Part shown: one piece after another, positions 36,872-64,000 of the stretch | How positions within the stretch are numbered: position 1 is the first letter of the stretch | Layout: every line of letters begins with the position of its first letter | Assembly (NCBI RefSeq): GCF_001273845.1 | Contig: NZ_JHBW01000110.1 | Coordinates: 1-64,000 of the forward strand | Length of the DNA: 64,000 nt | DNA from: Leucobacter musarum subsp. musarum | GTDB taxonomy: Bacteria > Actinomycetota > Actinomycetes > Actinomycetales > Microbacteriaceae | Reading direction: 5' to 3' | Made by a program: the position numbers and the translations under genes | Notes under the pieces: generated by a model | What the model was told of the DNA's origin: nothing | The model's database searches: none | The model's input: the letters and a program-made list of their open reading frames with translations, nothing else

Positions 36872-36909
36872 TGAGGGTGGGTTGCTCCGAATGGAGCAGC
36901 CCACTCTCA
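36872..36909. terminator. Inverted repeat between convergent SLH and acyltransferase genes
   Basis: Positions 36872-36888 pair with 36893-36909 over 17 bases with two G-U wobbles and a tight 4-base loop. The right arm includes the stop codon of the acyltransferase. Confidence 0.6.
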
Positions 36910-39039: not shown

Positions 39040-39049
39040 TCTTCTCGGC

Positions 39050-39080
39050 TGTGACGGGCGATCGCCCCGGTCACACCCTA
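39050..39080 (-). promoter_or_regulatory. Promoter and operator-like palindrome of the acyltransferase gene
   Basis: On the minus strand TAGGGT (39080-39075) could be the -10. Directly downstream lies a near-perfect palindrome (39050-39075: TGTGAC and GTCACA around GGGCGATCGCCC). A protein bound there would block transcription start. Confidence 0.45.
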
Positions 39081-39156
39081 GCGGAAGGGGCAAATCGGCG
39101 TCGGGTGGATCGGAGCCGCGCACGCGAGGCGCGTAGCGATATCGCGAAGTTCAACC

Positions 39157-39169: not shown

Positions 39170-41014
39170 ATGTCGGGGGGAATGAAAACGGGAGTGCGCG
39201 CAGCACTGCTCGTCACACTATCGTTTGCGCTGCTCTTTCAGGGCGGTGCGGCGTTCGCCGACCCTGCCCCGAGCCCGGTGACCCCCGAGCCCACGGTATC
39301 CGTCGATGCCGCGGCAGATACAGACGATGCGGGATCAGCCGACGCCTCGGGATCCTCAACTGCTGCTGACGATTCAGCGAATGCCGACAGCTCCGCAACG
39401 AGTGGTGCCGAGACCTCGTCTGAAGCCGATGCGAGTGCCGGGTCTGAGGCGAATACCGACGCCTCCGGGGCCGACTCCGAGGGCGGCACGACAGCAGACG
39501 GCTCGAGTTCAGCCGCAGAGGCCGACGCCGGAGCCGACGGAGACGACGCCGCGGCGCAGACAGATTCTGACGCCGACGCACAAGCTGACCCGACCCCGTC
39601 GCCGACCGAGCAGAGCACGCCGACCCCATCAGATCTGCCCGACGAAGCGATCGATGAGAGCTTGGGGAACGAACGCTCGCTGCGCTCTCTCGCGGCATCG
39701 ACGTCACTCTCGAACGGCTTCAACGCCGGCTACATTGTCTCCGATCAGAACTTCTACAACGGTTCCGGGATGTCGACATCTCAGATCCAGACCTTCCTGA
39801 ACCAGAAGGTCGGCCGCTGCACAATTGGCGACCCAGGTCGTGCACCAGGTTCTGCTTGGGGAAATACGACGATCGCCTGGTCATGCCTGAACGGAGCCAA
39901 GTGGACGACGTCGAATCGCGCCTCGAACTCGTATTGCAAAGCTGTTTCCGGTGGGTCGCAGCAGTCGTCTGCAGCGATCATCTCGAAGATCGCCAGTGCG
40001 TGCGGCATTAGCCCGCAGGTGCTGCTGATCACCCTCGAGAAAGAGCAGAGCCTCATCTCGGATACGTGGCCCACGGCACGCCAGTTCGATGTGGCGACCG
40101 GGTACGGTTGCCCCGACACCGGGCCCAACTACTCAGCGAACTGTAACCCGGCTTATCTCGGGTTCCCGAGCCAGGTGTATTACGCCGCTTGGCAGCTGAA
40201 GGTCTATAAGGCCAACCCTGGCAACTACAACTACGCGCCCTACCGCACGAATACGATTCAGTGGCACCCGAACCCGGGCTGCGGCACGTCGCAGGTCTAC
40301 ATCGAGAATTACGCAACCGCGGCGCTGTACATCTACACGCCGTACCGCCCGAATCAGGCCGCGCTCAACGCGGGTTGGGGCACGGGTGACGCATGCTCGA
40401 GCTACGGTAACCGCAACTTCTATCAGTTCTACAAAGCGTGGTTCGGTACGCCGAATTCGGCCTTCCCGGATGTGCCTCCCAGTCACCAGTTCTTCACGGA
40501 GATCCAGTGGATGGCCTCTACGGGTCTATCAACTGGCATCAAGACGTCTGACGGCCGCGTCATCTACCAACCCAAGGGCGCGGTGACGCGTGAGGCGATG
40601 GCGGCGTTCCTCTACCGCATGGAGGGTGCGAGCTACACCGCGCCGAAGAAATCGCCGTTTGCTGATGTGCAGCCGGGTGACAAGTTCTACCGCGAGATCA
40701 CATGGATGTACGCGAAGGGCTACTCGACGGGCATCAAGCAGAACGGTGTGCTCGTCTACGCTCCGAAGAATTCGGTCAGTCGTGAGGCGATGGCGGCCTT
40801 CATTTACCGCATCCAGGGCGGCAAGTACACAGGCCCCGCCAAGTCGCCCTTTGCCGACATGCAGCGCGGAGACAAGTTCTACAACGAGGTCACCTGGATG
40901 TACGCGCGCGGCTACGCAACTGGAATCAACCAGGGCGGTACCCGGGTGTACGCCCCGAAGAACTCGGTCAGCCGTGAGGCAATGGCAGCGTTTATCTACC
41001 GTCTCAGTCGCTGA
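39170..41014 (+). CDS. Secreted SLH protein with lysozyme-like domain
   Basis: A 614-residue exported protein. The signal peptide is MKTGVRAALLVTLSFALLFQ, cleaved near AFA/DP. An Asp/Ala/Ser/Thr linker (25-165) follows. The conserved domain at about 178-425 (AGYIVSDQNFYNGSGMSTSQIQ...KISSACGISPQVLL-like...YGNRNFYQFYKAWFG) is known to me from many actinobacterial secreted proteins. Glu290 and Glu292 in TLEKEQSL after a short helix recall lytic transglycosylases. Three SLH domains lie at 430-614. The conserved cysteines suggest disulphides. It may remodel peptidoglycan at the wall surface. ATG 39170 agrees with a leaderless promoter; ATG 39182 is the alternative. Confidence 0.75.
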   Translation: MSGGMKTGVRAALLVTLSFALLFQGGAAFADPAPSPVTPEPTVSVDAAADTDDAGSADASGSSTAADDSANADSSATSGAETSSEADASAGSEANTDASGADSEGGTTADGSSSAAEADAGADGDDAAAQTDSDADAQADPTPSPTEQSTPTPSDLPDEAIDESLGNERSLRSLAASTSLSNGFNAGYIVSDQNFYNGSGMSTSQIQTFLNQKVGRCTIGDPGRAPGSAWGNTTIAWSCLNGAKWTTSNRASNSYCKAVSGGSQQSSAAIISKIASACGISPQVLLITLEKEQSLISDTWPTARQFDVATGYGCPDTGPNYSANCNPAYLGFPSQVYYAAWQLKVYKANPGNYNYAPYRTNTIQWHPNPGCGTSQVYIENYATAALYIYTPYRPNQAALNAGWGTGDACSSYGNRNFYQFYKAWFGTPNSAFPDVPPSHQFFTEIQWMASTGLSTGIKTSDGRVIYQPKGAVTREAMAAFLYRMEGASYTAPKKSPFADVQPGDKFYREITWMYAKGYSTGIKQNGVLVYAPKNSVSREAMAAFIYRIQGGKYTGPAKSPFADMQRGDKFYNEVTWMYARGYATGINQGGTRVYAPKNSVSREAMAAFIYRLSR

Positions 41015-41041: not shown

Positions 41042-43729
41042 TCAGTGGCTGAGCGCGTGCGCGGAACGTCCTTCAGTCGCAGTGATCGGCTGGAGGCGCT
41101 CTTCGATCGCCGCGACGACACGGGCGCTTGCGCCTGAGTCGTGGAAGGCGTAGAGGCGTTCGATTCGATCTCGATAGTCGGGGAGCTCCGGGAGGGAGTC
41201 GTCGACCAACTGCTGGAGCGCGGTGACGGCGCTGTCGAGCGTCTCGCGAACCGGGCCGAAGCCATCGCGCTCGTAATCGAAGTATCCCGGCGAACCGATG
41301 TGGTTGCCCGCAAAGAACGTGTCACGGTCGAACTGGAAGTACAGGGTCGGTGCGCCGCAAAAGGCTCCCTCGAACGCCTGCGATGAATAGTCCGTCACGA
41401 CAACATCGGCTCCCGCGAGCAATTCCTGCACATCGTCGCCGAGATACGACAGACGACGCATGCCGTCGGGTAGCTGGAGATCGGTCCAATGCTTGTCAAT
41501 TCCCGGGTGCGGCAGCAATACAACATCGACATCTGTGCGTTGCGAGAGCGCTACGACGGTGTCGCTGTGTAGAAAGCGAAGCCAGTTCTGCACGAAATCC
41601 GATTCGTAGAAGCCGGCCGTAAGTGCATTTTCGGCGCCCTCGGTGAGCCCCGCAAGATAGTTGCGCCATGTGGGCATGATGACCACTCGACGCGGCGCAC
41701 CACTGCCCGTGCGCTCCTGCGAAAGCCTGAAGAGCCGGTCATGACGTGGCATGCCGGTGAGGGTGACCTCACGATCTGAGAGATCGTAGGGGCTGCCATC
41801 GGCCACAATCGATTGATGCTCGGCCAGGGTGGAGGTGACCAGATGGTCAATATTCTTGATGTTCCACCACCGGTGGAGTCGAACCTGGGTGACGCCATGC
41901 TGCAAGAACGAATACGTCCAGGTCTTTGGCAAGAACTCTTTCGGGAACGGACGCACGATGTACTGGTCAATCATGGACGAAGTGAGCACCCGAGCCTCTT
42001 TCATGAGGCAGAAGTGTCGCCAACTGCCATGGGCGACGAGGCGAAATCCATCCGCACGGAGCCGAGCGAAATCAGGTGAGGATCGGTCAATGACGAACCA
42101 GGCGTTAATGTCTGGACGTTCGCTCGCAATGAAGCGGTAGAGTGCTTCCGCGTTATCGTTGGCCTGCGTGTTGCGATCGATAAGTACCCAGGCATCTGCA
42201 AACTTTTTCCGGAGCCCGATGTACCCGCCGACGCGGTACGCCAGCGCGAGACGGCGCCGCTGATTTCTAGAGTCTCGCTTCGTCTTCTCAATCTGAAGTG
42301 CCGCACGATGCGCGTGCTCGTCTCGTAGCGTCATCGATTGAGTACCTGGCTTGGGGAGCGAAGGCGGTACTTTTTTCAGGAGTCGGCCAGCTTTCCGAGC
42401 CGTGAGTGCTTTCTCACCGAAAGCAAATGTCAATCCGGGACTCGTGCCTCGAACGTTCAGATTCTCCAGACGATGCGCGATGCCTGAGGTGCGTATCCAG
42501 AGAATATGTTCGTAGATCCATATCTGGTCGAAGAACAGGACCGCTCGCGTTTTCGCGAAGCCCACCTGAACAGGTTTGCCATCGTCGAAGACTTCGGCTG
42601 TTGCCTTGGCGTCAGCTGAGTGGAACACGATCTTCTGGAGCCCGCGAACCTCGTCATGTTCGCGGAGGATTGCGACGTGGGTAACACCTTCCGGCGATGC
42701 CGCGTATTCCCAAGCAGTCCGAATGTCTACGGGAACGTTGATAACTCGGAAGGTCTGCACGTTGCGCAAGCCAACTCGGCGAAGTGCTTCGCGAGTGAGG
42801 TCGTGTAGTTGGTGCTGCTGAGTATCCGAAATGCTGAAAACGGTCGATCGTATCTGCGTGTACTGAACGAAAAGCCACCACATGTCGTAAAGAATCAGAC
42901 TTCCGAGCCAAGCTGGGCAGTCGTTATTGACGCGATCGAGCAGATCGAAGTACGCGACTTCGATGACATTGATGTACTTCGTGAAATTCAGTACCGACGT
43001 GAGTGAGCCTTCGCGAGCACGGTATCGATAGTGCGCGTTCGGCAGCAGCTGGTAACGAGGAGTCTCGAGAGTCAGGAGATAGCGAGCGATGAAATGGGCG
43101 TCTTCGAATCCCTGCCGTAGACGCTCGTCAAAGCTCAATGCATACTTGCGAATTCGAGATACTCGGAATGCTGCCATCCCGGCATGGAGGTGAATTTTCT
43201 CCGGGGTCTCAAGGAGATCGACAACCGAGTTGCTTTCAAGTTTTGCGAACCGGAAGTCGAGCGGGTGGTGGGTGAGCTCGCCATCGCTACGAAGACGCAC
43301 CATACGCGTGACGTGCATGTCGATCTCCGGAGATGCGGCGATCGCCGCCAGAATCTCGGAGAAGTAGTTCGATGACAGTTCATCGTCGGGGCCGGAGTAA
43401 CTCACCCAGTCGGCCCGAGCGAGGTCGGTGCCCTGGTTCAACGCACCGCTGACCCCACGGTTCGGCTGCACGGCGAGTACGACGGGGAAGTCGGTCGAAC
43501 GCATCCACTCGGCAACGATGCGCTCCGAGTCATCTGGCGATCCGTCGTTCACGAAAATCAATTCGACCGCGCCGTGTTCGCAGTCTTGGGCATCGAGGCT
43601 GCGCAGCAGCACCGGAAGGTACGTCGCGACGTTGTAGCAAGGAACCACCAGAGAGAGGCTGGGGTGATCACCGTTCCCGAGGCCGTTGGTATGGATTTGT
43701 GCGGTTTCCTGTGGTGCGTGGTGCGTCAC
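41042..43729 (-). CDS. GT2 glycosyltransferase fused to CDP-glycerol glycerophosphotransferase (TagF-like)
   Basis: An 895-residue bifunctional enzyme for a teichoic-acid-like polymer. The GT2 domain (about 20-250) has LSLVVPCYNVATYLPVLL and the acidic SYSGPDDE. A middle region follows, then a TagF domain (about 520-890) with the catalytic His611 in LQHGVTQ, MPTWRNYLAG and the CDP-binding VTDYSS. The GTG at 43729 has AAGGA 7 bases upstream; a longer frame to 43852 lacks such a site. The gene is clearly poorer in G+C (about half in sampled lines) than its surroundings, suggesting transfer. A Pho-box-like pair abuts its -10. Confidence 0.85.
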   Translation of the reverse strand: MTHHAPQETAQIHTNGLGNGDHPSLSLVVPCYNVATYLPVLLRSLDAQDCEHGAVELIFVNDGSPDDSERIVAEWMRSTDFPVVLAVQPNRGVSGALNQGTDLARADWVSYSGPDDELSSNYFSEILAAIAASPEIDMHVTRMVRLRSDGELTHHPLDFRFAKLESNSVVDLLETPEKIHLHAGMAAFRVSRIRKYALSFDERLRQGFEDAHFIARYLLTLETPRYQLLPNAHYRYRAREGSLTSVLNFTKYINVIEVAYFDLLDRVNNDCPAWLGSLILYDMWWLFVQYTQIRSTVFSISDTQQHQLHDLTREALRRVGLRNVQTFRVINVPVDIRTAWEYAASPEGVTHVAILREHDEVRGLQKIVFHSADAKATAEVFDDGKPVQVGFAKTRAVLFFDQIWIYEHILWIRTSGIAHRLENLNVRGTSPGLTFAFGEKALTARKAGRLLKKVPPSLPKPGTQSMTLRDEHAHRAALQIEKTKRDSRNQRRRLALAYRVGGYIGLRKKFADAWVLIDRNTQANDNAEALYRFIASERPDINAWFVIDRSSPDFARLRADGFRLVAHGSWRHFCLMKEARVLTSSMIDQYIVRPFPKEFLPKTWTYSFLQHGVTQVRLHRWWNIKNIDHLVTSTLAEHQSIVADGSPYDLSDREVTLTGMPRHDRLFRLSQERTGSGAPRRVVIMPTWRNYLAGLTEGAENALTAGFYESDFVQNWLRFLHSDTVVALSQRTDVDVVLLPHPGIDKHWTDLQLPDGMRRLSYLGDDVQELLAGADVVVTDYSSQAFEGAFCGAPTLYFQFDRDTFFAGNHIGSPGYFDYERDGFGPVRETLDSAVTALQQLVDDSLPELPDYRDRIERLYAFHDSGASARVVAAIEERLQPITATEGRSAHALSH

Positions 43730-43773
43730 GTGCGTGTCCTTGGGTTGCTTGCTCGGCTGGGCGATCCTCAAAA

Positions 43774-43798
43774 ATTCTAACTTGAACACAGAATGAAC
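43774..43798 (-). promoter_or_regulatory. Pho-box-like pair abutting the -10 of the GT2-TagF gene
   Basis: On the minus strand GTTCATT (43798-43792), CTGT, GTTCAAG (43787-43781) are followed after one base by TAGAAT (43779-43774), a good -10. The box would overlap the polymerase -35/-10 contacts, which suggests repression rather than activation. Confidence 0.5.
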
Positions 43799-43932
43799 CG
43801 CGGGGAGTCGCCGAGCCTGGGCGCTCTCGACGGGTCGCCAGCTCGGGCGCACGAGTCAGCACTATCGTGGGTTTCAGGCGCCTGAGCAGTGCGCTGGGCG
43901 CGAGGGCGCCGACTCTGCAGAAAGGTCGCGCA

Positions 43933-46900
43933 ATGAGCGAATCGGAGCAACCGGACATCTCGGTCATCGTCGTCACGTACAACGATGCGGTGCACCTCGC
44001 GGCAGCCGTGCAGTCGGTGCTCGATCAGTCGCTCGCCTCGATCGAGGTCATCATCTCGGACGACCACTCGGCCGATCACACCCCCATCGTTGCGGGTGAG
44101 CTCGCCGCATCGGATGCGCGCGTCGTGTCGCATCGCCGCAGCGAGAATGCCGGAGCCCCCGGCGCTCCGCTGAACGACGGGCTCGATCGCGCGCGCGGCC
44201 GCTACGTCATGTTCCTCGGTTCAGATGACGTGCTCGCTCCCGGCGCGTGCGCTGCACTGCTCGAGGCGGCGGCCCGCACCGGTTCCGAGATCGTGTCGGG
44301 TCAGCTGGTGCGCGTGATGCTCGGGGAGGGCGGCGAACGACGCCCGTGGTTCCCGGAGCTGTATCGTGCCGAGCGCACGGACGCGTCGCTCGCAGATTTT
44401 CCGGATCAGCTGCACGACACGTTGACAACGAACAAGCTCTACTCACGCGAGTTCCTCACGCGCATCGGCGCGCGTTTCCCCGAGGGGATGTTCTACGAGG
44501 ATGTGGCGTTCTCCGCCGAGACGCTCGCGCAGGCGAACGGGATCACCCTCATACCGAACGAGGTGTACGAGTGGAACGTGTACCCCCGCGAGGAGCGGGA
44601 ATCGATCACGAATCAGCGTGCGACGCCGAAGAATCTCGAAGACCGACTGCGGGCGCTCGACCTCGCCGAGCAGTCACTTGCCGCGAGCGGCCTGGCGGTG
44701 CTGCGCGAATTCCATCGAAAGACGCTCACTCACCATCTGCGGTTCTACCTCAACGACTTCCTCACGGCCGACGACGACTGGTGCGAGTGGGTGCTCGAGA
44801 CCGTGCGCCCGCGACTCGAGCGCACGCCGCTCGACGCATTCCGCAGCGGATTCCTCGGAGATCGCGCGCTGTACGCCGCGGCCCTTGAAGGCGACATCTC
44901 CGCAGTGCGCGCAGTGCTGCGCGGCAAGCAGGCCGGCGCCCTCGCCGGGCACGTGTACACCAATGGCGGCGTCACGTTCTGGGCCCCTCGGGGCCCGGAA
45001 TCGCGACCGCATCGCACCGAGCTCGCGCGCGAACTCTCGGATGTCACGGATCGCGCGGCGAGAATCGCCTCACACGCCACCCTCGTCTACGCAGCTGAAA
45101 TCCTCGACGCAGAACTCGACGACACTGTTCACGAACCCACCCGCCTGCGCCTGCGCGGCACCGCGACCGATCTCCGTGGGGTGCTGGCAGATTCCCGCAC
45201 GGTATTCCGGGTGATCGCTGAGTCGAACGCTGCGATCGCGCGTCTCGATGCAGCGGCACCAGAGGTGCTTGCGACCGATGTTGATATGACGGTTGTTCCT
45301 GAAGGCGTGACCTGGGAAGCCGCGATTGCGCTTCCGGAGCACGGCTCTGGAGCTCAGGCGGGCACCTGGAACCTGTCGCTCGTGGCAACCGACGCGGCCG
45401 GAACCGAGAACGTCATCGCACTGCGTCGACCGCACGCCGGTACCGATGCGGGTGCGGCGGCAGCGGTCATCACTGACGGGTGGACCATCGACCCGGACCC
45501 CGATGGTCGCGCGCGGCTCTCGCTCGCTCGCGCATCGCATCCGGGGCAGCACAATGTCATCGTGATCGGCGACGTGAGTTGGCGCGGGCGCTATCACCTG
45601 GGCGACGAGGCGATGACGGAAGCCGCCATCGACCAGCTGCGCGCCCAGGGGCTCGGAGTCACCCTCGTCGCGGGCGATCCCGAGCTCTCTGCAGCGTTTT
45701 ACGGCGTGCCCACGGTGCCGGTGTTCGGATTCGCGAAGCTGCGCACGGATGCCGCGCGCGAGGAGCGCGCCGACGCCATCCTTGCGGGAGCTCACGGCGA
45801 AGCTCCGCTCGAAGACGCTGACGCCGCTTCGGTGAGGGCGGTGCTGCAGGCGTCTGCGGTGGTGATCGCCGGCGGGGGCAACATGAACTCGAGCGGCGCT
45901 CATCACATTTACGAGCGCCTGGTACTCACCCGGCTTGCGGCCCACGCGGGCATTCCCGTCTACGTCTCGAGCCAAACGGTGGGCCCGCATCTGCTGCCTG
46001 AGCACCGCGGGCTGGTGCAGGAGATCGTGCAGACCGCCGCGGTCTTCGGGTCTCGCGAACGCGCGACCACGGCGCTCATGCGCGAGCTGGCGGGGGATCG
46101 CGGCGTCGTCGTGCAGACGCTCGATGACGCGCTGCTGCTCACGCCTGCAGAGCTGACGTCGCCGGTGCAGGATCGCGTATCGCTGCCCGAACGCTACGTC
46201 GTCGGCAGCTTCACGTATCACGCGTTCTCCACGGGGCTTTCGCGTGAGGAGTACTACCGAGCACTCGCCGGCATGCTCGACGACGTGGTGGAGTCGAACG
46301 ATGTCGACGTGATTCTCCTGCCGCACATGGGGGTGCTCGGCCCGGCCCGGCAGTCGGGTGAAGACAACGACGAGTTCGGCCACGACCGCATCGCCGCGTG
46401 GTCTCGCACTGGCCGGGTGCGGTCATTGCCGCTGGTCTCCGCGCGCGAGGTGTTCGGCATTACCGCGGGTGCGCGCTTCAGCATCTCGACCCGCTACCAC
46501 CCGGTCGTGTTCGGTGCCGCGCTCGGAGTGCCCGCGATCGGCGTCGTCACGAGCTACTACTCGGCACTTCGCATGCGCGGTGCGCTCTCGCAGTTCGGCA
46601 TGGAATCGTTCGCGATTCCCTTCGAGCACTGGGGTCTGTTCGGCCCGCGGGTGCTCGAGGCGCTGCGGGAACGTCGGGATGAGTTCGCCCAGCACAGCAG
46701 GCAGGTCGGTGAGTCGCAGCAGGCGTATCAGCGGTCATGGTGGGCGGGCATTGCAGCCAGCATCGTGGACGCCGGAGAACCGCTGCGCAGCGACGCATCA
46801 CTTCCGGATGCCTTCGAGTGGAGCGATGCCGCCGACGCCGACCTCCTCGCGGTCGCCCGCGTCGCGCAAGAGGGCACCAACATGTACCGCATGAACAACC

Positions 46901-47154
46901 TGTTCACGGTGGATCGGCATGAGACGGGGCTGAACCAGCACACCCGAGATCTCGAGGCGGTTGCGAAGCGTCTGACCCAGCTCTCCGAGGGAGTGCGTCG
47001 CGCGGATGCGCTCGCGAAACGTGTGACTGCGTTGGAACGCGTGCAGAAGGATACGGAGGCGCTCATCGCCGACCTGCGGCACCGCATGCGCCCGCCAGGA
47101 GCGGCACTGCGCGATCGCGTGCGCGGTGCGTTGCGCCGGGGGCGAGAGCAGTAG
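43933..47154 (+). CDS. GT2 glycosyltransferase fused to polysaccharide pyruvyltransferase
   Basis: A 1073-residue fusion. Residues 1-230 are a GT2 domain (ISVIVVTYNDAVHLAAAVQS, FLGSDDVLAP). The middle 230-535 includes an Ig-like beta part. Residues 540-935 are a pyruvyltransferase domain of the CsaB/WcaK family (VIVIGDVSWRGRYHLGDEAM, VIAGGGNMNSSG, SSQTVGPHL, STRYHPVVFGAALGVPAIG). A coiled coil ends in LRHRMRPPGA. The enzyme would add a sugar and a 4,6-ketal pyruvate from phosphoenolpyruvate to a wall polymer. ATG 43933 follows GAAAGG. It is divergent from the GT2-TagF gene. Confidence 0.85.
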   Translation: MSESEQPDISVIVVTYNDAVHLAAAVQSVLDQSLASIEVIISDDHSADHTPIVAGELAASDARVVSHRRSENAGAPGAPLNDGLDRARGRYVMFLGSDDVLAPGACAALLEAAARTGSEIVSGQLVRVMLGEGGERRPWFPELYRAERTDASLADFPDQLHDTLTTNKLYSREFLTRIGARFPEGMFYEDVAFSAETLAQANGITLIPNEVYEWNVYPREERESITNQRATPKNLEDRLRALDLAEQSLAASGLAVLREFHRKTLTHHLRFYLNDFLTADDDWCEWVLETVRPRLERTPLDAFRSGFLGDRALYAAALEGDISAVRAVLRGKQAGALAGHVYTNGGVTFWAPRGPESRPHRTELARELSDVTDRAARIASHATLVYAAEILDAELDDTVHEPTRLRLRGTATDLRGVLADSRTVFRVIAESNAAIARLDAAAPEVLATDVDMTVVPEGVTWEAAIALPEHGSGAQAGTWNLSLVATDAAGTENVIALRRPHAGTDAGAAAAVITDGWTIDPDPDGRARLSLARASHPGQHNVIVIGDVSWRGRYHLGDEAMTEAAIDQLRAQGLGVTLVAGDPELSAAFYGVPTVPVFGFAKLRTDAAREERADAILAGAHGEAPLEDADAASVRAVLQASAVVIAGGGNMNSSGAHHIYERLVLTRLAAHAGIPVYVSSQTVGPHLLPEHRGLVQEIVQTAAVFGSRERATTALMRELAGDRGVVVQTLDDALLLTPAELTSPVQDRVSLPERYVVGSFTYHAFSTGLSREEYYRALAGMLDDVVESNDVDVILLPHMGVLGPARQSGEDNDEFGHDRIAAWSRTGRVRSLPLVSAREVFGITAGARFSISTRYHPVVFGAALGVPAIGVVTSYYSALRMRGALSQFGMESFAIPFEHWGLFGPRVLEALRERRDEFAQHSRQVGESQQAYQRSWWAGIAASIVDAGEPLRSDASLPDAFEWSDAADADLLAVARVAQEGTNMYRMNNLFTVDRHETGLNQHTRDLEAVAKRLTQLSEGVRRADALAKRVTALERVQKDTEALIADLRHRMRPPGAALRDRVRGALRRGREQ

Positions 47155-47204: not shown

Positions 47205-47297
47205 CAGTCATCTCTGTGGAACCCCCGCGACATCTGCCAGCGATCCCGCAATAATCGTGACGGCGGTGGCAATTCGCACCGTGGAATCGGGGGAGAC

Positions 47298-52210: not shown

Positions 52211-53296
52211 ATGTCTGCACGAGTCATTCACATCACCGGCGCACGCCCCAACTTCCCGAAGGCCGCACCCGTGATGCGCGCGCTCGACGATCTCGGCGTC
52301 GATCAGTTGCTGGTGCACACCGGTCAGCACTACGACGACAAGCTCTCCGACGTGTTCTTCCGGCAGCTCAACCTGCGAAAGCCCGACCTGTCGCTCGGCG
52401 TCGGCTCGGGGTCGCACGCCACGCAGACGGCCGCCGTCATGGTGGCGCTCGAGGAGGTCTTCACCGAGCACCAGCCCGAGCTCGTCGTCGTGTACGGCGA
52501 CGTGAACTCGACGCTGGCCGCGGCACTCGTCGCCTCGAAGCTCGGCATCGCGCTCGCCCACGTCGAAGCCGGACTGCGCAGCTTCGACCGGACCATGCCC
52601 GAGGAGATCAACCGGATTCTGACCGATTCGGTCTCGGACCTGCTCTTCACGACGAGCCCCGATGCCAACGTGCACCTCGGTCACGAGGGGGTGCCCGAGG
52701 AGAGGATCTTCTTCGTCGGCAACCCGATGATCGACACGCTCCTCTCGAGCGTCGACCGCTTCGATGCGAGCGCAGTGTTCGCGGAGCTGCCGTTCGAGGC
52801 GTCCGACCCCTACCTGGTCGCGACGCTGCATCGGCCGGCAAACGTCGATGACCCGACAGCGCTGCAGGATTTGGTGTCAGCGCTCATCGAGTGTGCCGCA
52901 AAGGCGCCCGTCGTGCTGCCGATGCACCCGCGCGGCGTGCGCGCCTTCACCGCGACGGGCATCTTCGAGCAGCCGAACATCCACATCATCGAGCCGCAGG
53001 GCTACCTGGAGTTCATGGGTCTCGTGCGCGGCGCTCGCGCCGTGGTCACCGATTCGGGCGGGGTGCAGGAGGAGACCACGATGCTCGGGGTGCCCTGTCT
53101 CACGCTGCGGCCGAACACGGAGCGCCCGGTGACGATCTCTGACGGCACGAACACGCTGGTGACGCCGCAGACCGTGGTGTCGGTGCTGCGGGATCGCCTT
53201 GCCGCCTCGGCCGACGCCGAGCACCGCACTCCGCCGCTCTGGGACGGAGCCGCCGGTCGCCGCATTGCGCGCATCATCGCTGAACGCGTGGCATGA
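52211..53296 (+). CDS. wecB: Non-hydrolysing UDP-GlcNAc 2-epimerase WecB
   Basis: It interconverts UDP-GlcNAc and UDP-ManNAc, supplying ManNAc for wall polymers. The 361-residue enzyme has the landmarks ARPNFPKAAPVMRAL, LVHTGQHYDDKLSD, VVVYGDVNSTLAAAL, HVEAGLRSFDRTMPEEINR, GNPMIDTL and TDSGGVQEET, with the family's catalytic acids and His. It lies fourth in the operon, and its stop overlaps the next gene by four bases. The dehydrogenase encoded at 55943-57214 could oxidise its product. Confidence 0.93.
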   Translation: MSARVIHITGARPNFPKAAPVMRALDDLGVDQLLVHTGQHYDDKLSDVFFRQLNLRKPDLSLGVGSGSHATQTAAVMVALEEVFTEHQPELVVVYGDVNSTLAAALVASKLGIALAHVEAGLRSFDRTMPEEINRILTDSVSDLLFTTSPDANVHLGHEGVPEERIFFVGNPMIDTLLSSVDRFDASAVFAELPFEASDPYLVATLHRPANVDDPTALQDLVSALIECAAKAPVVLPMHPRGVRAFTATGIFEQPNIHIIEPQGYLEFMGLVRGARAVVTDSGGVQEETTMLGVPCLTLRPNTERPVTISDGTNTLVTPQTVVSVLRDRLAASADAEHRTPPLWDGAAGRRIARIIAERVA

Positions 53297-55942: not shown

Positions 55943-57214
55943 CTACAGTCGGTGGACGTTCTCGCCGCGGAGGCTATTGCGGGTGTCGAAGACCGGGATT
56001 CCCGAATCGACGAGCAGCGACAGATCGATGTCGGAGTGATCGGTGACGACGATCGCGATATCGGCCGAGGCGATCGTGTCGGCGTTCAGCTCGACGCGCT
56101 CGGCGCCGGCCGGCCAGCGGTGCTCCTCGACGTGGCTGTCGACTCCGAGTACCTCGGCGCCGTAGCTCTGCAGCAGTTCGATGACGCGCAGCGCCGGTGA
56201 CTCCCTCGAGTCGCCCGAGTCCTTCTTGTAGGCCACACCGACGAGCAACACCCGTGAACCGCGCAGCGCCTTGCCGTCGTCGTTGAGCAGGTGCATGGCG
56301 CGTTGCACCACATGATCGGGCATGTGCTCGTTGACGTCGTTCGCAAGCTCGACGAAGCGGAAGTTGCGGCCGAGCTCGGTGCGCACCTTCCACGACAGGT
56401 AGCTCGGGTCGATCGGCAGGCAGTGCCCGCCGACGCCCGGGCCGGGGGTGAACTTCATGAACCCGAACGGCTTCGTCGCTGCGGCGTCGATGGACTCCCA
56501 GACGTTCACCCCGAGCTCGTGCGCGAACACCGCGAGCTCGTTGACGAGGGCGATGTTGACGTGGCGGAAGGTGTTCTCGAGCAGCTTCGCCATCTCGGCC
56601 TCACGCGGCGAACTCACCGGCACCGTCTGATCGACCAGGTCCGAGAACAGTCCGTTCACCTTCTCGAGCGATCGTTCATCGATGCCCGAGACGATCTTCG
56701 GCGTGGTTTGGAAGCTGAACTTCTGGTTGCCGGGATCGATGCGCTCGGGGCTGTACCCGACGTGGAAGTCGGTGCCGGCGCGGAGGCCCGAACCCTCCTC
56801 GAGAATCGGGATCAGCAGTTCCTGCGTCGTGCCCGGGTACGTGGTCGATTCGAGCACGATGGTGGCGCCCGGCGTGATGTGCGGGGCGAGCGATGCGCCC
56901 GAGCTCTCGATGAAGCTCAGATCAGGCGTCGAGTCTTTCAACGGCGTGGGCACGGTCACCACGGCGAAGTCGAACCCGGCCGCTTCGGCGTAGTCGTTCG
57001 TCGCGCGATAGCGACCCGTCGACCCGGCTGCCGTGAGTGCGGTGTTCGAGATGTCCTCGACGTACGACTCGCCACGGTTGAGCGCGTCGATACGACGCTG
57101 ATCGAAGTCGATGCCGACCACGTCGTAGCCGGCTTCGACCGCGCGGACCGACAGTGGGAGACCGACGTAGCCCTGGCCGATAACGACGAGTTTGGGTGCC
57201 TCAGAGTTGCTCAC
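55943..57214 (-). CDS. UDP-N-acetylhexosamine 6-dehydrogenase (WecC/WbpA type)
   Basis: A 423-residue NAD-dependent enzyme that would oxidise UDP-ManNAc or UDP-GlcNAc to the uronic acid in two steps. The N-terminal Rossmann fold is LVVIGQGYVGLPLSVRA, and VPTPLKDSTPDLSF follows. GYSPERIDPGNQKF is closer to the WbpA/UDP-GlcNAc class than to WecC. The catalytic Cys lies in GVGGHCLPIDP. GTG 57214 is 7 bases after a TAGGCT -10, with a Pho-box-like pair 9 bases upstream of that. With wecB adjoining, ManNAcA or GlcNAcA in the polymer is likely; the exact sugar is unresolved. Confidence 0.88.
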   Translation of the reverse strand: MSNSEAPKLVVIGQGYVGLPLSVRAVEAGYDVVGIDFDQRRIDALNRGESYVEDISNTALTAAGSTGRYRATNDYAEAAGFDFAVVTVPTPLKDSTPDLSFIESSGASLAPHITPGATIVLESTTYPGTTQELLIPILEEGSGLRAGTDFHVGYSPERIDPGNQKFSFQTTPKIVSGIDERSLEKVNGLFSDLVDQTVPVSSPREAEMAKLLENTFRHVNIALVNELAVFAHELGVNVWESIDAAATKPFGFMKFTPGPGVGGHCLPIDPSYLSWKVRTELGRNFRFVELANDVNEHMPDHVVQRAMHLLNDDGKALRGSRVLLVGVAYKKDSGDSRESPALRVIELLQSYGAEVLGVDSHVEEHRWPAGAERVELNADTIASADIAIVVTDHSDIDLSLLVDSGIPVFDTRNSLRGENVHRL

Positions 57215-57254: not shown

Positions 57255-57324
57255 GGAACGTGGCCGTTTGTTGCCCCTTGCTAGATTGATCGGGATCGAG
57301 GATTCCGGGGCGACAGGAGGTGCC

Positions 57325-59208
57325 GTGAGCGCGACCGTGCAGCGAGACTACGCGAACCATGCAGCGTCGACTCTGGAGTCGTGGGCGCCGCACACGACCC
57401 TGATCATGGCGTGCTTCCGGGTCGGTGAATACCTGCCAGTGTTCCTCGCGTCGCTCGACGCGCAGACGGCGGATCATCGTGACTACGAACTCGTATTCGT
57501 GATTGATGGGTGCCCGGAAGACTCCGAAGACGTCGTCGCACGGTGGGCCGAACGCACCGACTTTGTGGTGCGCATCATTGTCCAGGAAAACGGCGGCGTG
57601 GCCTCCGCGCGCAACACCGGGCTCCGGGCGGCGCGCGGACGCTGGGTATCGTCGCCCGACCCCGACGATCGCCTCGACGACGAGTACCTCGCACGCATCG
57701 CCGAGGCCCGCAGTGCAGCTCCCGGGGTGGACATGGTGGTGGGTCGCATTCAACTGCGCGACCCGCAGGGTCGCGCGATCCCGCACCCCCTCGACGGCAA
57801 GTTTCGCGACGCCCGACGCCGTGTCGTCGATCTCGGTGTCGACGCCGACGCCGACGACATTCAGACCCTTGGTGGCTCCGTGTTCTTCTCGACCGAGCGC
57901 ATCCGCGAACACGACCTTCGGGTGCACGAGGGGCTGCCGACCGCCTCCGACGCCGACTTCATCATGCGCTATCTCGTCGCGACGGGCGCGCGCTACCTGC
58001 TGGTGCCTGACGCGATCTACCACTACCAGCGTCGCGCCGATGACTCGTCGATTGTGAAGCGTCAGGAGCGCAACATCGAGCGCTTCACCGTCGTGTTCGG
58101 CGAGACCCATCGCGCGCTGCTGCTCAGCACCACGGGGGAGTGCCCGAGGTGGCTCGCCAACACCCTGCTGTACTTCACCTCGTACCTCTTCCGACGGAAC
58201 CTGCAGGCGCAGTCGCCGGTGTACGATACCCCCGCCGAGACCCTCGCGATCATCGATGCCGAGCTGCGCAGGAACCTCCAGTTGATCGGCGCCACGCACA
58301 TTACGGCGTTCCGCATCGTCGCCCTGCCGCACGAGATTCGGATGGCGTGGATCGCGGCGGCGACCAACCAGCGCTTCACGCAGACCCCCGTGCACGCGTT
58401 GGGCTCCCCGCGGCCTGCTGGGCGGCGGCACCTCGCGCTGTACCTCCCACTGGGATCGGAAGTTCCGGCGATCGAGACCACGGCGCGCGTCGTCGACCAG
58501 AAGGTTCGAGAGGTCGAATTTCTCGGCGCCCCGTGGGTGCAACAGGTGGTGCTGATCATGCAGAGCGCCGAGGCGCCGCACGTGCTCAACGTGGCAGGAA
58601 TGGAGCTCTCGGGCAACGACGATGACCCAGGAGTTGCCCCTGGCACCGAGCCGCGGCGACTGGGGGTGATCGGCAGGGTGCGGCGCGCCAGCTATGCGAT
58701 TCCGCTCCGGATCGCCGGGCTCACCGGCGCCTCGCGTCGATTGGCCGGGGTGCGCGTCATCGACCCGAGCGGCGTCCCCGCAGGGCCACTCGCCGCGGCT
58801 GCGCTGAACGCGCTGCCCGCTGAGGGCGCGACCTTCTGGGTCGTGCGTGACCCCGGTTTGCCGGCGACCTCGCTCCCGAACGGAATGCGGAGTGTGCGGC
58901 GCGGCAGTCGCGCGCACTTCATCCTGATGAAGCACGCCGCGTGGCTGGTCGCGGCGAGCCTGGATGGCCGCGTGCAGCAGCCGTTCACGCGTGATGTGCT
59001 GGAGCCGACGTGGCAACGTGCGCACGTAGTGACGGGGGCGCTCGGAGCGCACGACTTCCGCGCACTGAACCCTCTACCCGTCGAGCTGCTCGTCGTGCCG
59101 ACCGAGTCGGAGCGAGTCGAAGTCACCGCGTCAGGGAGCAGATACCGGTTCGCCGACAGTGAGGTGCGCTCCGCGTCTTCCCGGGGTTCATCTTCCGGCG
59201 AAGTTTAG
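57325..59208 (+). CDS. GT2 glycosyltransferase with degenerate TagF-like C-terminus
   Basis: A 627-residue protein homologous in layout to the GT2-TagF enzyme at 41042-43729. The GT2 domain (about 20-260) has TTLIMACFRVGEYLPVFLASL, NGGVASARNTGLRAARG and SSPDPDD. The C-terminus (480-627) aligns with the first part of the TagF domain (ATFWVVRD, RGSRAHFILMKHA, QPFTRDVLEPTWQ). However, QHG is replaced by TGALGAHD, and the protein stops where about 200 more residues, including the CDP-binding half, should follow. Phosphotransferase activity is therefore probably lost. GTG 57325 follows CAGGAGG; TAGATT at 57280 fits a -10. Confidence 0.8.
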   Translation: MSATVQRDYANHAASTLESWAPHTTLIMACFRVGEYLPVFLASLDAQTADHRDYELVFVIDGCPEDSEDVVARWAERTDFVVRIIVQENGGVASARNTGLRAARGRWVSSPDPDDRLDDEYLARIAEARSAAPGVDMVVGRIQLRDPQGRAIPHPLDGKFRDARRRVVDLGVDADADDIQTLGGSVFFSTERIREHDLRVHEGLPTASDADFIMRYLVATGARYLLVPDAIYHYQRRADDSSIVKRQERNIERFTVVFGETHRALLLSTTGECPRWLANTLLYFTSYLFRRNLQAQSPVYDTPAETLAIIDAELRRNLQLIGATHITAFRIVALPHEIRMAWIAAATNQRFTQTPVHALGSPRPAGRRHLALYLPLGSEVPAIETTARVVDQKVREVEFLGAPWVQQVVLIMQSAEAPHVLNVAGMELSGNDDDPGVAPGTEPRRLGVIGRVRRASYAIPLRIAGLTGASRRLAGVRVIDPSGVPAGPLAAAALNALPAEGATFWVVRDPGLPATSLPNGMRSVRRGSRAHFILMKHAAWLVAASLDGRVQQPFTRDVLEPTWQRAHVVTGALGAHDFRALNPLPVELLVVPTESERVEVTASGSRYRFADSEVRSASSRGSSSGEV

Positions 59209-59283: not shown

Positions 59284-60807
59284 ATGCGGGTTGTCGTCGT
59301 CGGTGATCTCGCCTGGGACGGCCGGTACCACCTCGGCGACGAGGCAATGTCGGAAGTCGTGCTGCAGCAGCTGCAGTCGCGCGGCGACACGGTGACGTTC
59401 ATCGCGGGCAACCCCGAGGTCACCACACGTTTCTACGGCGTCGCCGCAGTGCCGCGCTTCGGCATGCGAGACCTCGATCGCGACGCGCAGTTCATGCTGC
59501 TCGACACGCTGGAGGGTGCGGCCAGCGAACCCGGTCGCGCGCCGCATTCTGCGCGCGCCACGCTCAACGCGCTGCGCGCCGCCGACGCGGTGATCATCGC
59601 GGGTGGCGGCAACCTGAATTCCATCGGCATCCACCATGTGCTTGAGCGGGTTGCCGTGACCCGCATTGCCCGAGCGCTCGACATTCCGCTCTACGTCACC
59701 AGCCAGACCGTCGGGCCGCACCTGCGTGACGGCGAGCGAGAGCTGGTTGCCGAGATCGCGCGGTACGCGCGGGTGTTCGGGGTGCGCGAGCGTAACTCCG
59801 CCGCGCTCGTGCGCGGGCTGGCTCCGGGCGCAAACGTCGTGCACACCCTCGACGACGCGATCCTGCTCGAACCCGCAGCACTCACGCACCCGCTGGACCT
59901 GCCGGCCAAATATGCCGTCGCCAGCTTCACGTTCCACCCCAAAACCACCGCACTGCACGTCGACGACTACTACCGCGAACTCGCGGCGATCCTCGACCAA
60001 CTCGCGACTGAGCTCGATGTCGACGTGCTGCTGCTGTCGCACATGAGCACCTTCCAGACACCGAACACGCTCGGCGGTGAAGACGACGGCTACGGGCATG
60101 AACGCATCGCCGCGCTCTCGGCATCCGGGCGTCTCCGCGTGCTTCCGTTGTTGCCGGCGGCGGAACTGCTCACGATCACGGCCGGAGCCGAGTTTTCGGT
60201 GTCGACGCGGTACCACCCGCTCATCTTCGGCGCCGCACTCGGCGTTCCCGCCATCGGTATCGTCACCAGCTACTACTCCGCGATCCGCATGCGCGGGGCC
60301 CTCGCCAACGTGGGCATGGAAAGCTTCGCGATTCCTTTTGAGCACTGGCGGGCGAGCTTCGCGGCACCGCTCATCGCGTCACTGCGCGCGAGACTCGGCG
60401 AGTTCCGCGAGCACCTCGGGCGCACGGGAAGCGCGAGTCGTGAGTTCCAGCAACGGTGGTGGGCCGAGCTGGTCGCGAGCCTACACGAACATCGCGCGCC
60501 TCGATGCGCGGACGCGCCCGCCGCGGCAGACTTGTCGTGGGCAGATTCGGAGACGCAAGACGCGCTGGCGCTGGCCCGCGGAGCTCAGGAACTCACGAAC
60601 CTCGATCGCCTGAACGCACTCATAGACACCGAACTGCGGCGGCAACAGCACGATGCGGCCTGCGCCCGGATCGAACACCTCGAACGCGAGCTCGGGCGTC
60701 TGAGCGACGCCGTCGGCGATCTGCGCCACCGGATGCGACCGCCCGGGGCGAACCTGCGTGATGCACTCAGACGCAGACTCGCCTCCGGTCGGGGCGAGAA
60801 CGGCTAA
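59284..60807 (+). CDS. Polysaccharide pyruvyltransferase (CsaB/WcaK family)
   Basis: A 507-residue enzyme that would transfer enolpyruvate from PEP to make a pyruvate ketal on a wall-polymer sugar. Landmarks are VVVVGDLAWDGRYHLGDEAM at the start, IIAGGGNLNSIG, TSQTVGPHL, HTLDDAILL, STRYHPLIFGAALGVPAIG and a predicted coiled coil (about 440-485) ending in DLRHRMRPPGANLRD. The whole length matches the C-terminal half of the 43933-47154 fusion. ATG 59284 follows a GGGGGAACGGA box. Its stop overlaps the convergent gene by four bases. The promoter carries a Pho-box-like pair. Confidence 0.88.
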   Translation: MRVVVVGDLAWDGRYHLGDEAMSEVVLQQLQSRGDTVTFIAGNPEVTTRFYGVAAVPRFGMRDLDRDAQFMLLDTLEGAASEPGRAPHSARATLNALRAADAVIIAGGGNLNSIGIHHVLERVAVTRIARALDIPLYVTSQTVGPHLRDGERELVAEIARYARVFGVRERNSAALVRGLAPGANVVHTLDDAILLEPAALTHPLDLPAKYAVASFTFHPKTTALHVDDYYRELAAILDQLATELDVDVLLLSHMSTFQTPNTLGGEDDGYGHERIAALSASGRLRVLPLLPAAELLTITAGAEFSVSTRYHPLIFGAALGVPAIGIVTSYYSAIRMRGALANVGMESFAIPFEHWRASFAAPLIASLRARLGEFREHLGRTGSASREFQQRWWAELVASLHEHRAPRCADAPAAADLSWADSETQDALALARGAQELTNLDRLNALIDTELRRQQHDAACARIEHLERELGRLSDAVGDLRHRMRPPGANLRDALRRRLASGRGENG

Positions 60808-63800
60808 GCGGCCGGGTCGATCGCGTCGACGAACATCTGCAGCGAATGCTGCGAGAACGACTCCGCATCGAACTCCGTCGAGCCAGTGAGCTTGCCGTCG
60901 GCGATGCGGTGCACGGCCTCGACGAGCCCCTCGTGCGAGATCGGCACGAGGGGGCCGAATGCGCCATCGTGCAGCACCGAGCGCGAGCCCGGGGTGTCGG
61001 TCGCGATGACCGGTGAACCGATCGTGAGCGCTTCGAGCAGCACGAGCGGCTGCCCCTCGTGCAGCGACGGGAGCACGAGGGCGCCCGCGGCCTTCAGATG
61101 CGCTTGCGGGTTCGGCACCTGGCCGCGGAGTCGCACCAGGTCGCCGAGTTCGAGCCGGTCGATGATCTGCTGCAGTTCAAGTCGCAGGGGCCCGTCGCCC
61201 ATGCAGGTCACCTTCACCGGGCGCGACAGATGCTCGCGCTGCTCGGCAAGTGCGGTGAAGAACGCGGCGTGATTCTTTTCGTGCGAGAGCCGCGCGATAA
61301 ACGCTGCATGGGCGCCCGGGGTGGCGTACCACTCGAGGTCTTCAGCGTCGAGCGGCACCTCAGCGAGCGCACGAATCTCGGCCACGTTGATGGTGTTCTC
61401 GATGGTGATGTGCTTGTCGACCGGCACCCCGAGGTGCTCATGCAGCGTCTGTGCGTTGTAATCGCGCACGCCGTCGCTGACCGAGGCGCAGAAATCCATC
61501 TCGTCCATCGATAGGAAACCGGGCTTCAGCCGCGGGTACTTGTTCTCGATCTCCTTCCACATCTCGTTGTGGAAGATGATGCCCCGTGAACCGCCGTTGA
61601 CGCGGACCCCGTACCCGATGAGCGCGATGTTCTTCGCATCGTAGGCGCTGAACTCGACGGCGGCGTGAAACTCCGTGGTGCCGAACAGACGACGCGCTTC
61701 GCGTTGTTGCCCGCTCTTGATGAACTGCTTGACGAGCGGGAAATCGAGGTAGCGACGCGTTGAGAAGAACTGCAGCGCTTCGCGCTCCATGCGGGTTCCT
61801 GCGAAGAGAGAGACCGTGGGGAGCACGCGAGCGTACTCGCGCACATCCGCGAGCGTGCCGGGCTCGGCGCCATCGAGGGCGTTTCGGTTCGGCATGAGAT
61901 ACGGCGAGTACTCGGTGCCGTCGAGCGACGCGATCAAGCTGCGCACGGAACGCGTGATGCCGTTCGGCGGGAGACCGCCCGTGGAGAGCAGCACCGTGCG
62001 CTTGCTGGGGCGGGTCGCTGCGGGAGTGTGCGACCGGAGCAGCTCGATTGAACGCTGTGCTGAATTGCCGCGCTCCTCGGAGCTGAAACGCTCGGTGAGT
62101 GGGGCGTAGGAATCAACGAAAGCGTCACGGTCAGCAACCGCCGCGAGCAGATGCTCACGCGCCTCGGCCAGCGATGCGGCATTCGCGCCAGGAATCTCGT
62201 CGGCCGAGAAGTACAGTCCGCGATCGGCACGATACGCGTCGAGGTCTGCGGTGAGCTTCACCACGGGAACGCCGACCGCGGCGGCATCGAACAGCACGCT
62301 CGAGAAGTCGGTCACCACGGCGTCTGCCGCGCCGATGAGTTCGTTCGTGTCGAACTCCGGCGGCACGAATACGAATCCCTCGGGCGCCGCGGCACCGCGG
62401 AACGACTTGCTCACGTAGTGGTGTGCGCGCACGGCGACGGTCAGCCCGGCCGCACCCAGACCGCGGGCCGTGTCGATGACCTCCTGCACCTCAGCGTTTC
62501 GCTCCGAGAACGTGCCTTTCCACGTCGGCATGTATAGTACGAGCGAGCCGCCCTCCGGTACACCGAGTGTCGAACGAATCGCGTCGCGCTCCTCCGAGGG
62601 AAGATTCACCGCGAGGTCGTTTCGCGGATAGCCGCTGCGCACGAAGATCTCGGGTCGGAGCTCGTCGAGATCATGACCGCGCGATAGCACGTCGAGGGTG
62701 TGCTCATCGGGACCGAGCACGACGTCGGCGTGCAAGAAATTACGGGTGATGTTGCCGTAGGCGAACGGCTCCGATTTGTTGTCTCGGCCCATCGTCTTCC
62801 ACGGAACCCCGTGCCAGGTGTTCAAGTAGCGCTGTCCCTCGCGCTTCACGAAGTTGTACTCGATCGTCGAATTATTGATGATCGAGCCCGCGCAGGCCAG
62901 ATAACGGAAGTGACCCGACGAGCCCTTGCGCACAAAGATCACGTTGGGGAGATCTCGAAGCGAGGGGTGCACGATGGCATTGGCATCGATGCTCCAGACA
63001 TGCAGCATGTCGGCATTCTCGGGGTCTTTCAAGAACTCGCGGCAGATCGCCAGCGGGTTGCAGGTCGTCGACGCTCCGAGCGACGACTCGTAGAGCACGG
63101 TTCGCTGCTGCAACGGCTCGGTCTCGGCGCACTCGTGATAGTAGATGTTGCGGGCGGAACCGAGGCGAGTCCACTTCGGGAGCGTCAATTGGATTGACGG
63201 GAGCCGCTTGTATTGCGCAGTGCGAGTCGCTTCCCAAGCCTCGTCCCACTCCTCGGCATCGGCCAGCTGAGCCGCCAAGCGCATCGACGCCTGCCAGCGC
63301 ACCTTGCGGCTGCTGGCACGGAGCGCAATCTGGCGCAGATGCTCGACGCGGAGGGGATAAACGAGTCGTCGGTTGTATTGTTCGACGAGATCGACGATCT
63401 GCGGGTCGACCTCGTGCTCGAGGTCATCGGGCGGGATCGTCTCGGGCAGATTGAGATCTTCGAGGTAGCTCAGTACGGCAGCCTCGGCCCCCTCAGATTC
63501 GGCGAGGAGCGAGGCGAGCCGGAATCGATGCAGCAGCGAGCGTTCGCGCGGCTGCGCTGAGCGGTACGCCTCGATTGCATCTTCGTGGCGTTCGAGCAGC
63601 TCGAGGAGCTGACCCAGATGCGACTTCATCGCACGTGGCGCATCGGCCCGGTGCATGGCAATCTGCGCGTGTGCGATGCCCGTGTCGAACTCGCCGAGCT
63701 GCACCCGCGCGCGGAAGCTCAGATCGAGCAGATGCGTTTCGGCAGTCGCATCGAGATGCTGAAGCAGCTTCGCTGCTTCGTCAGCATGCTGGTACTCCTC

Positions 63801-64000
63801 GAGCTGCAGCTGCGCCACCGCGAAGACATCAAAGCCATCGGCTGTCGGCGCGAACTCGCGGTACAGTGCCTCGACATCCGCATTCAGTCCGAGCGACCGG
63901 GCGCAATACGCTGCGATCAACAGCCGCTTGTCGCCTGCGGGAAGCTTCGGGAAGGTGCGAAAATCCTCCCAAGCCTCTTCGAACCGGCCCTGCTTCATCA
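60804..64000 (-). CDS. Helical-repeat/TagF/GT4 multidomain polymer enzyme (5' end outside window)
   Basis: At least 1064 residues; the reading frame reaches the window edge, so the true start may lie beyond it. Residues 1-260 as numbered here are TPR-like helices. A TagF domain (about 290-660) has the catalytic NTWHGVPWKTMGRDNK, LYMPTWKGTFSE and VVTDFSSVLFDA. A GT4 domain (about 670-1064) has GGLPPNGITRSVRSL, IARLSHEKN and PSLHEGQPLVLLEAL with the conserved Glu. It would add glycerol-phosphate (or a related polyol phosphate) and a sugar to the polymer. It converges with the pyruvyltransferase gene, stops overlapping in CTAA. Confidence 0.85.
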   Translation of the reverse strand, partial: MKQGRFEEAWEDFRTFPKLPAGDKRLLIAAYCARSLGLNADVEALYREFAPTADGFDVFAVAQLQLEEYQHADEAAKLLQHLDATAETHLLDLSFRARVQLGEFDTGIAHAQIAMHRADAPRAMKSHLGQLLELLERHEDAIEAYRSAQPRERSLLHRFRLASLLAESEGAEAAVLSYLEDLNLPETIPPDDLEHEVDPQIVDLVEQYNRRLVYPLRVEHLRQIALRASSRKVRWQASMRLAAQLADAEEWDEAWEATRTAQYKRLPSIQLTLPKWTRLGSARNIYYHECAETEPLQQRTVLYESSLGASTTCNPLAICREFLKDPENADMLHVWSIDANAIVHPSLRDLPNVIFVRKGSSGHFRYLACAGSIINNSTIEYNFVKREGQRYLNTWHGVPWKTMGRDNKSEPFAYGNITRNFLHADVVLGPDEHTLDVLSRGHDLDELRPEIFVRSGYPRNDLAVNLPSEERDAIRSTLGVPEGGSLVLYMPTWKGTFSERNAEVQEVIDTARGLGAAGLTVAVRAHHYVSKSFRGAAAPEGFVFVPPEFDTNELIGAADAVVTDFSSVLFDAAAVGVPVVKLTADLDAYRADRGLYFSADEIPGANAASLAEAREHLLAAVADRDAFVDSYAPLTERFSSEERGNSAQRSIELLRSHTPAATRPSKRTVLLSTGGLPPNGITRSVRSLIASLDGTEYSPYLMPNRNALDGAEPGTLADVREYARVLPTVSLFAGTRMEREALQFFSTRRYLDFPLVKQFIKSGQQREARRLFGTTEFHAAVEFSAYDAKNIALIGYGVRVNGGSRGIIFHNEMWKEIENKYPRLKPGFLSMDEMDFCASVSDGVRDYNAQTLHEHLGVPVDKHITIENTINVAEIRALAEVPLDAEDLEWYATPGAHAAFIARLSHEKNHAAFFTALAEQREHLSRPVKVTCMGDGPLRLELQQIIDRLELGDLVRLRGQVPNPQAHLKAAGALVLPSLHEGQPLVLLEALTIGSPVIATDTPGSRSVLHDGAFGPLVPISHEGLVEAVHRIADGKLTGSTEFDAESFSQHSLQMFVDAIDPAA

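Follow-up and report, generated by a model that had tools for sequence, protein, structure and literature searches.

The stretch analysed here, called the window, comprises 64,000 nucleotides (positions 1 to 64,000 of contig NZ_JHBW01000110.1) of Leucobacter musarum subsp. musarum and carries a gene that joins a family 2 glycosyltransferase (GT2), an Ig-like middle part, a predicted ketal-pyruvyltransferase domain (PS_pyruv_trans, PF04230) and a coiled coil in one chain, with three genes for SLH-domain proteins on its 5' side (Table 1). The product of this fusion gene is most likely a two-step enzyme decorating a cell-wall polymer, and probably the maker of a ligand for SLH proteins. Its open reading frame (ORF) encodes 1073 amino acids and a stop codon with no internal stops, and both PF00535 (residues 10-176, 1.7e-25) and PF04230 (residues 556-874, 3.5e-26) scored above their Pfam cut-offs. 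A GTG at 43867 also lies in the open frame; the ATG at 43933, with AAAGG at 43921-43925 just 5' of it, is the better predicted start. AlphaFold modelled the whole chain with a pLDDT of 79.3 (above 90 in most blocks of the PF04230 part) and residues 1-540 with a pLDDT of 86.9 and a pTM of 0.85 (37 sequences). All four parts had been named in an earlier interpretation made from the letters of the DNA (hereafter the sequence-only reading), and all four were recovered by ORF translation, Pfam and AlphaFold, the coiled coil agreeing with a long C-terminal helix in the model.

The full fusion chain was present in 5 of the 54 Leucobacter genomes in our genus sample, the window's own included. The other four chains (L010, L011, L012 and L013 of genomes G028, G002, G044 and G029), which have the same domain order, were 54, 64, 55 and 54% identical to that of the window, L010 being from L. 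chromiireducens subsp. solipictus, and the GT2 and pyruvyltransferase parts were well conserved, the middle poorly. The pyruvyltransferase domains of the five fusions formed one clade (support 96/94 in one tree and 100/96 in another), and a single origin is therefore the simplest explanation for the Leucobacter fusion. The sequence-only reading had singled out a frameshift or an assembly error joining two genes as a danger to its proposal; since a chain of this architecture occurs in four more assemblies, this explanation is rejected, and the shared identity and the well-supported clade leave it practically no chance of being correct. A search of the literature on the fusion, its relatives and Leucobacter SLH ligands found such a fusion named nowhere within the library and terms used. 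Scanning for promoters and terminators gave nothing usable, with one promoter-like site at 47227-47255, 3' of the gene, and one terminator-like site, compared to 0.4 and 1.4 expected in shuffled sequences.

By its fold, the N-terminal half models as a wall-teichoic-acid glycosyltransferase of the TarS/RmlT type. RmlT is reportedly a wall-teichoic-acid rhamnosyltransferase. The model of residues 1-540 aligned with TarS (5tze; Z 32.7, root-mean-square deviation (rmsd) 3.9, 341 residues aligned), RmlT (8bz6; Z 31.7, rmsd 13.1, 422 aligned) and TarP (6h4m; Z 30.8, rmsd 2.9, 302 aligned), the large rmsd to RmlT arising because the domains are turned relative to each other, and the next GT2 structures outside this group were 5hea (Z 28.0) and SpsA (Z 23.8). 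Foldseek also placed RmlT and full-length TarS at the top, over 553-585 columns. The GT2 motifs of the fusion are DDHS (43-46), GSDD (96-99) and ED (189-190), so that the DSDD/ED motifs of TarS are retained, and D190 aligns with D178, the proposed base of TarS. In TarS the catalytic domain is followed by a linker (two antiparallel strands plus a helix) and then by two immunoglobulin-like CBM domains, C1 and C2, which are thought to bind the polymer (PMC5156392). In its models the fusion shares with TarS, RmlT and TarP the GT2 fold with its DXD-type and ED catalytic residues, the helical bundle, the linker and an Ig-like C1 domain, but has a pyruvyltransferase and a coiled coil in place of C2 and its trimer interface, at an identity of 13-21%. 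The Ig-like middle part described in the sequence-only reading is thus borne out by the strands at residues 386-498, consistent with an Ig-like/CBM domain like those of TarS, and because residues 339-369 and 386-498 match the TarS linker and C1, it would belong to the glycosyltransferase half.

The C-terminal half scored 93.2 bits against PF04230 (cut-off 25.3), and its residues 540-950 gave a high-confidence GT-B model (Z 23.5, rmsd 4.0 and 353 aligned residues against 3ot5). Its earlier description as a CsaB/WcaK pyruvyltransferase was correct at the level of the PF04230 family and too precise as to CsaB: the CsaB equivalog TIGR03609 gave 59.3 bits, below the NCBIfam cut-off of 213.1, and we rejected the name of CsaB orthologue for this half. 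Ketal-pyruvyltransferases carry the motifs NxGD, RxxxS/T and H (PMC10629545), of which the latter two, matched by eye and without a residue alignment to WbbZ, are present as R708-ERA-T712 and H856, with R and H invariant across 33 aligned relatives. In CsaB, R148, H308 and K328 are critical for binding of phosphoenolpyruvate (PEP) (PMC10435577); of these, the fusion has clear equivalents of the R and the H only. The resemblance to WbbZ, Pvg1p and WcfO is one of family (PF04230, GT-B fold, the R and H residues), whereas those are described as separate enzymes and NxGD reads HLGD in the fusion. The WbbZ and Pvg1p structures were not among the 50 matches listed in the structure comparisons, a relation still being possible, and when the pyruvyltransferase alignment was used as a profile against solved sequences, it brought up coiled-coil matches only, neither 5ax7 nor 6x1l.

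The domain profile A3 (E <= 1e-40) was run on 396 genomes of the order, giving 49 places in 45 genomes, the window included, all of which were examined. With our own GT2 and SLH profiles, 15 of these 49 close relatives were fused to GT2 and 34 were unfused; the statement in the sequence-only reading that CsaB-type enzymes are normally single-domain therefore holds only in part. The GT2 domain came first in two of the fused chains (the window and L102) and the pyruvyltransferase first in the other 13. Of the fused loci outside the window, seven (L101-L105, L107 and L109) were submitted to Pfam, which found both domains in each and SLH in the three neighbours submitted with them; the single-domain L106 and L108 were not submitted and the fused loci L138-L143 and L146 rest on our own profile. 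The fused chains stood at five places in the tree, namely Leucobacter, G404, G588, four of family f14 and eight of family f12, and because the tree root is only a midpoint we limit our claim to at least three origins. A reversed pyruvyltransferase-GT2 chain on a distant PF04230 branch was also seen in Leucobacter G033 (L098:1535-4525). Single pyruvyltransferase genes often adjoin GT2 or GT2-TagF genes (L014, L015, L017, L029, L032 and G001). That sugar addition and ketal formation occur on the same intermediate, as the sequence-only reading had suggested, agrees with these unfused neighbours and with the opposite-order fusions in so far as one product would suit both; a common intermediate would go a step further than that.

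Other partners were found as well. In Leucobacter G049 the GT2-middle module is joined to TagF (L061:1420-4308, 962 amino acids, 42% identity over residues 2-476), and this genome has zero PF04230 and zero SLH matches, so that here, in one genome only, loss of the pyruvyltransferase partner coincides with a lack of SLH matches. Like the divergent neighbour of the fusion gene in the window, the L061 chain carries an N-terminal GT2 module of the same kind on a polymer enzyme; both end in a TagF-type polyol-phosphate transferase, where the fusion has its pyruvyltransferase. At L087:3484-6450 a flippase (Polysacc_synt_3) is fused to PS_pyruv_trans, which suggests pyruvylation at the export step, and at L081:1387-4863 and L082:1739-5071 the same domain is fused to an N-terminal part of about 730 residues that has no Pfam match.

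SLH domains are frequent in Actinobacteria. A pattern search of the three SLH proteins of the window found 3, 1 and 3 repeats in which W13, G29 and R43 are all kept, the residues that bind pyruvyl-ManNAc (ManNAc, N-acetylmannosamine) in SpaA of Paenibacillus alvei (PMC6081394). The nearest SLH gene lies approximately 2.9 kb from the fusion in the window, and at each of the other four Leucobacter fusion loci a pair of SLH genes lies on that side, the nearer one 2.9-3.0 kb away. When genomes with a domain close to that of the window (E below 1e-90) were scored as clade-positive, 11 of the 54 Leucobacter genomes qualified, with 5 to 51 SLH matches each, and five or more SLH matches occurred in 11/11 clade-positive compared to 2/43 other genomes (Fisher 8e-10, ignoring shared descent), the remaining clade-negative genomes having 0 to 2. 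Across the order, SLH was present in 86 of the 396 genomes, 28/45 clade-positive versus 58/351 others (Fisher 3e-10, ignoring relatedness). An SLH gene was found within 3 kb at 17 of the 49 loci, where about one is expected by chance, and this applied to 12/15 fused but 5/34 unfused loci (p 2e-5, ignoring relatedness); at 11 of the 15 fused loci, from several families, the distance was at most 133 bp. The sequence-only reading made no mention of the SLH genes, and therefore missed the likelier purpose of the fusion.

Two further observations concern SLH genes elsewhere. At L103, L104 and L107 a gene encoding SLH and Amidase_2 domains adjoins the pyruvyltransferase-GT2 fusion with gaps of 0-79 bp, presumably forming one unit of an SLH-anchored wall amidase and the putative maker of its ligand. 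The highest SLH counts in the genus were those of G005 (36) and G051 (51), and the G005 enzyme resembles L014 of L. celer subsp. astrifaciens, having equal length and profile scores. The latter is a nematode-adhering strain.

The window encodes several other envelope functions (Table 1), including additional glycosyltransferase genes 3' of the fusion gene. The product of the first SLH gene is likely an SLH-anchored peptidoglycan hydrolase, and an AT3-SGNH acyltransferase gene (36907-39123, minus strand), SucT-like but below cut-off, lies between the SLH genes. The second, unfused pyruvyltransferase also missed the CsaB cut-off (TIGR03609 86.5 bits, cut-off 213.1).

Table 1. Features predicted in the window, by nucleotide position (residue numbers refer to the fusion chain).
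Feature	Position	Strand	Evidence
CHAP, FG-GAP and three SLH repeats, 1230 aa	31189..34881	+	Domain search, repeat pattern
SLH-domain protein, 643 aa	34910..36841	+	Domain search
SLH-domain protein, 614 aa, three repeats with W13, G29, R43	39170..41014	+	Pfam, repeat pattern
GT2-TagF (Glyphos_transf) fusion gene, divergent neighbour	41042..43852	-	Pfam
Fusion gene: GT2, linker/Ig-like, PS_pyruv_trans, coiled coil	43933..47154	+	ORF translation, Pfam
TarS/RmlT-like GT2 catalytic domain with helical bundle, residues 1-335	43933..44937	+	Pfam; structural Z 30-33 to TarS, RmlT, TarP
Linker, two antiparallel strands and helix as in TarS, residues 339-369	44947..45039	+	AlphaFold model
Ig-like/CBM-like beta domain, residues 386-498, position of TarS C1	45088..45426	+	AlphaFold model, structure comparison
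Ketal-pyruvyltransferase domain, GT-B fold, residues 540-950, R708, H856	45550..46782	+	PF04230, model fold, invariant columns
Long C-terminal helix, coiled coil, residues 966-1052	46828..47088	+	AlphaFold model
UDP-GlcNAc 2-epimerase (WecB/MnaA type)	52211..53296	+	TIGR00236 298 bits, cut-off 210
Nucleotide-sugar dehydrogenase	55943..57214	-	TIGR03026 405 bits
GT2 gene, 45 bp 5' of second pyruvyltransferase	57268..59208	+	Domain search
Second, unfused PS_pyruv_trans, 517 aa	59254..60807	+	Domain search
TagF and GT4 protein	60804..63998	-	Domain search

The P. alvei pathway uses TagA to place ManNAc on lipid-linked N-acetylglucosamine (GlcNAc) and CsaB to pyruvylate this ManNAc while it is still on the lipid; csaB lies near spaA and slhA (PMC6030368). 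The Leucobacter locus resembles the CsaB/pyruvylated secondary cell wall polymer/SLH system of P. alvei and Bacillus in having a PF04230 enzyme near SLH genes, an MnaA-type epimerase and SLH repeats that keep the pyruvate-contacting residues. In contrast, TagA and CsaB are separate enzymes there, whereas here a TarS-like GT2 shares the chain with a domain that fails the CsaB equivalog, and TagA (PF03808) was absent from the window's genome, from all 5 fusion genomes and from 10/11 clade-positive Leucobacter genomes. Since two TagF-type genes and the TarS-like half point to it, the polymer may be a polyol-phosphate chain; ManNAc is a possible branch sugar because a UDP-ManNAc epimerase is encoded in the window. 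Pyruvylated teichoic acids occur in Brevibacterium iodinum and Nocardiopsis, where they are listed without a known function (PMC6801904).

Our preferred reading, with a probability of roughly 0.52, is that the fusion is a bifunctional enzyme that equips a teichoic-acid-like polymer with a pyruvylated sugar branch, as the ligand for SLH anchoring. The enzyme would act in the cytoplasm, where the TarS/RmlT-like half would transfer a sugar from a nucleotide donor to a lipid-linked, teichoic-acid-like polyol-phosphate chain held by the Ig-like domain, and the C-terminal half would then add pyruvate from PEP to the new sugar as a ketal. Once this product has been exported and linked to peptidoglycan, SLH repeats would bind the pyruvylated branch, which would thereby anchor the SLH proteins encoded next to the fusion gene. 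What the analysis shows is the single chain, with its domain families, predicted folds and conserved catalytic motifs, its genetic linkage to SLH and TagF genes, and the recurrence of the fusion; which sugar and acceptor are used, which transfer comes first, the role of PEP and the binding by SLH repeats are what we infer. Several observations weigh against this reading. The polyol-phosphate acceptor of the GT2 half is deduced from fold alone, and the AlphaFold models have no second Ig-like domain (C2) before the pyruvyltransferase. In place of NxGD the fusion has H555-L-G-D, and the corresponding H14 L15 G16 D17 of profile A3 is invariant, with H in 33/33 relatives. SLH proteins also occur apart from the enzyme, in Leucobacter G026 (8 matches) and G053 (13 matches), both with other PF04230 matches and without the clade, in 58 genomes of the order sample without a clade match, and in G282, a genome of the family with 12 SLH and zero PF04230 matches, where the SLH proteins may have another ligand or another enzyme making it. 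Conversely, the enzyme occurs without SLH in nine genomes, all from a single genus (f7 g91), and the fused loci L105, L109 and L140 lack an SLH gene in the flanking DNA examined. A family-wide rule that SLH implies PF04230 was tried and found unsupported (PF04230 in 8/11 SLH genomes versus 157/299 overall). The SLH link holds for the clade near the fusion domain and not for PF04230 at large, and because of f7 g91, G282 and the family-wide figures, such pyruvyltransferases appear to serve other ends too, and SLH proteins need not always depend on them.

Some of these observations lend weight to a different outcome of bifunctional catalysis, in which the enzyme would decorate a wall or capsular polymer with charge or an antigen, the SLH proteins would bind something else, and both would share the locus as envelope genes. 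The Brevibacterium and Nocardiopsis polymers, without a known role, the nine f7 g91 genomes and the frequency of PF04230 without SLH in the family would all fit; yet the SLH genes within 133 bp of 11/15 fused loci in several families, and SLH repeats in the window that retain the pyruvate-binding residues, make it unlikely. Somewhat doubtful is the view that the fusion does no more than keep the two domains co-regulated or in one place, each working on its own sugar or intermediate within a shared pathway. It draws on the promiscuity of the GT2 module, seen on TagF in G049 and in GT2-TagF fusions common nearby, and on the flippase-borne PF04230 of L087, and has to face a GT2/pyruvyltransferase pairing that recurs in both orders. 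That the C-terminal half is no pyruvyltransferase, and acts as a GT-B glycosyltransferase or serves as an inactive scaffold, we consider very improbable given a PF04230 score well above cut-off and the invariant R and H, despite the substituted N of NxGD. The nearest solved folds among the matches listed were UDP-GlcNAc 2-epimerases and GT4 enzymes, but WbbZ likewise resembles epimerases and gave such matches too (PMC10629545). The same source offers a warning on such calls in WbmX, initially taken for a GT-B glycosyltransferase.

Returning to the enzyme as maker of an SLH ligand, a wider proposition may be put forward tentatively, namely that in Actinobacteria a single-chain glycosyl/pyruvyltransferase, fused several times in both orders, makes the SLH ligand on a classical teichoic acid, with a polymer and pathway (TarS-like, no TagA) unlike the pyruvyl-ManNAc polymer of Firmicutes. 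A pyruvylated SLH ligand has been described for Bacillus and Paenibacillus, and actinobacterial pyruvylated wall polymers are given without known function (PMC6801904). The locus would tie actinobacterial SLH proteins to such polymers and name the genes concerned. The fusion is real and recurrent in its order, and on the best reading its system is a variant form of the known CsaB/SLH system; the enzyme would also offer, ready to use, both catalytic steps for making pyruvylated glycans.

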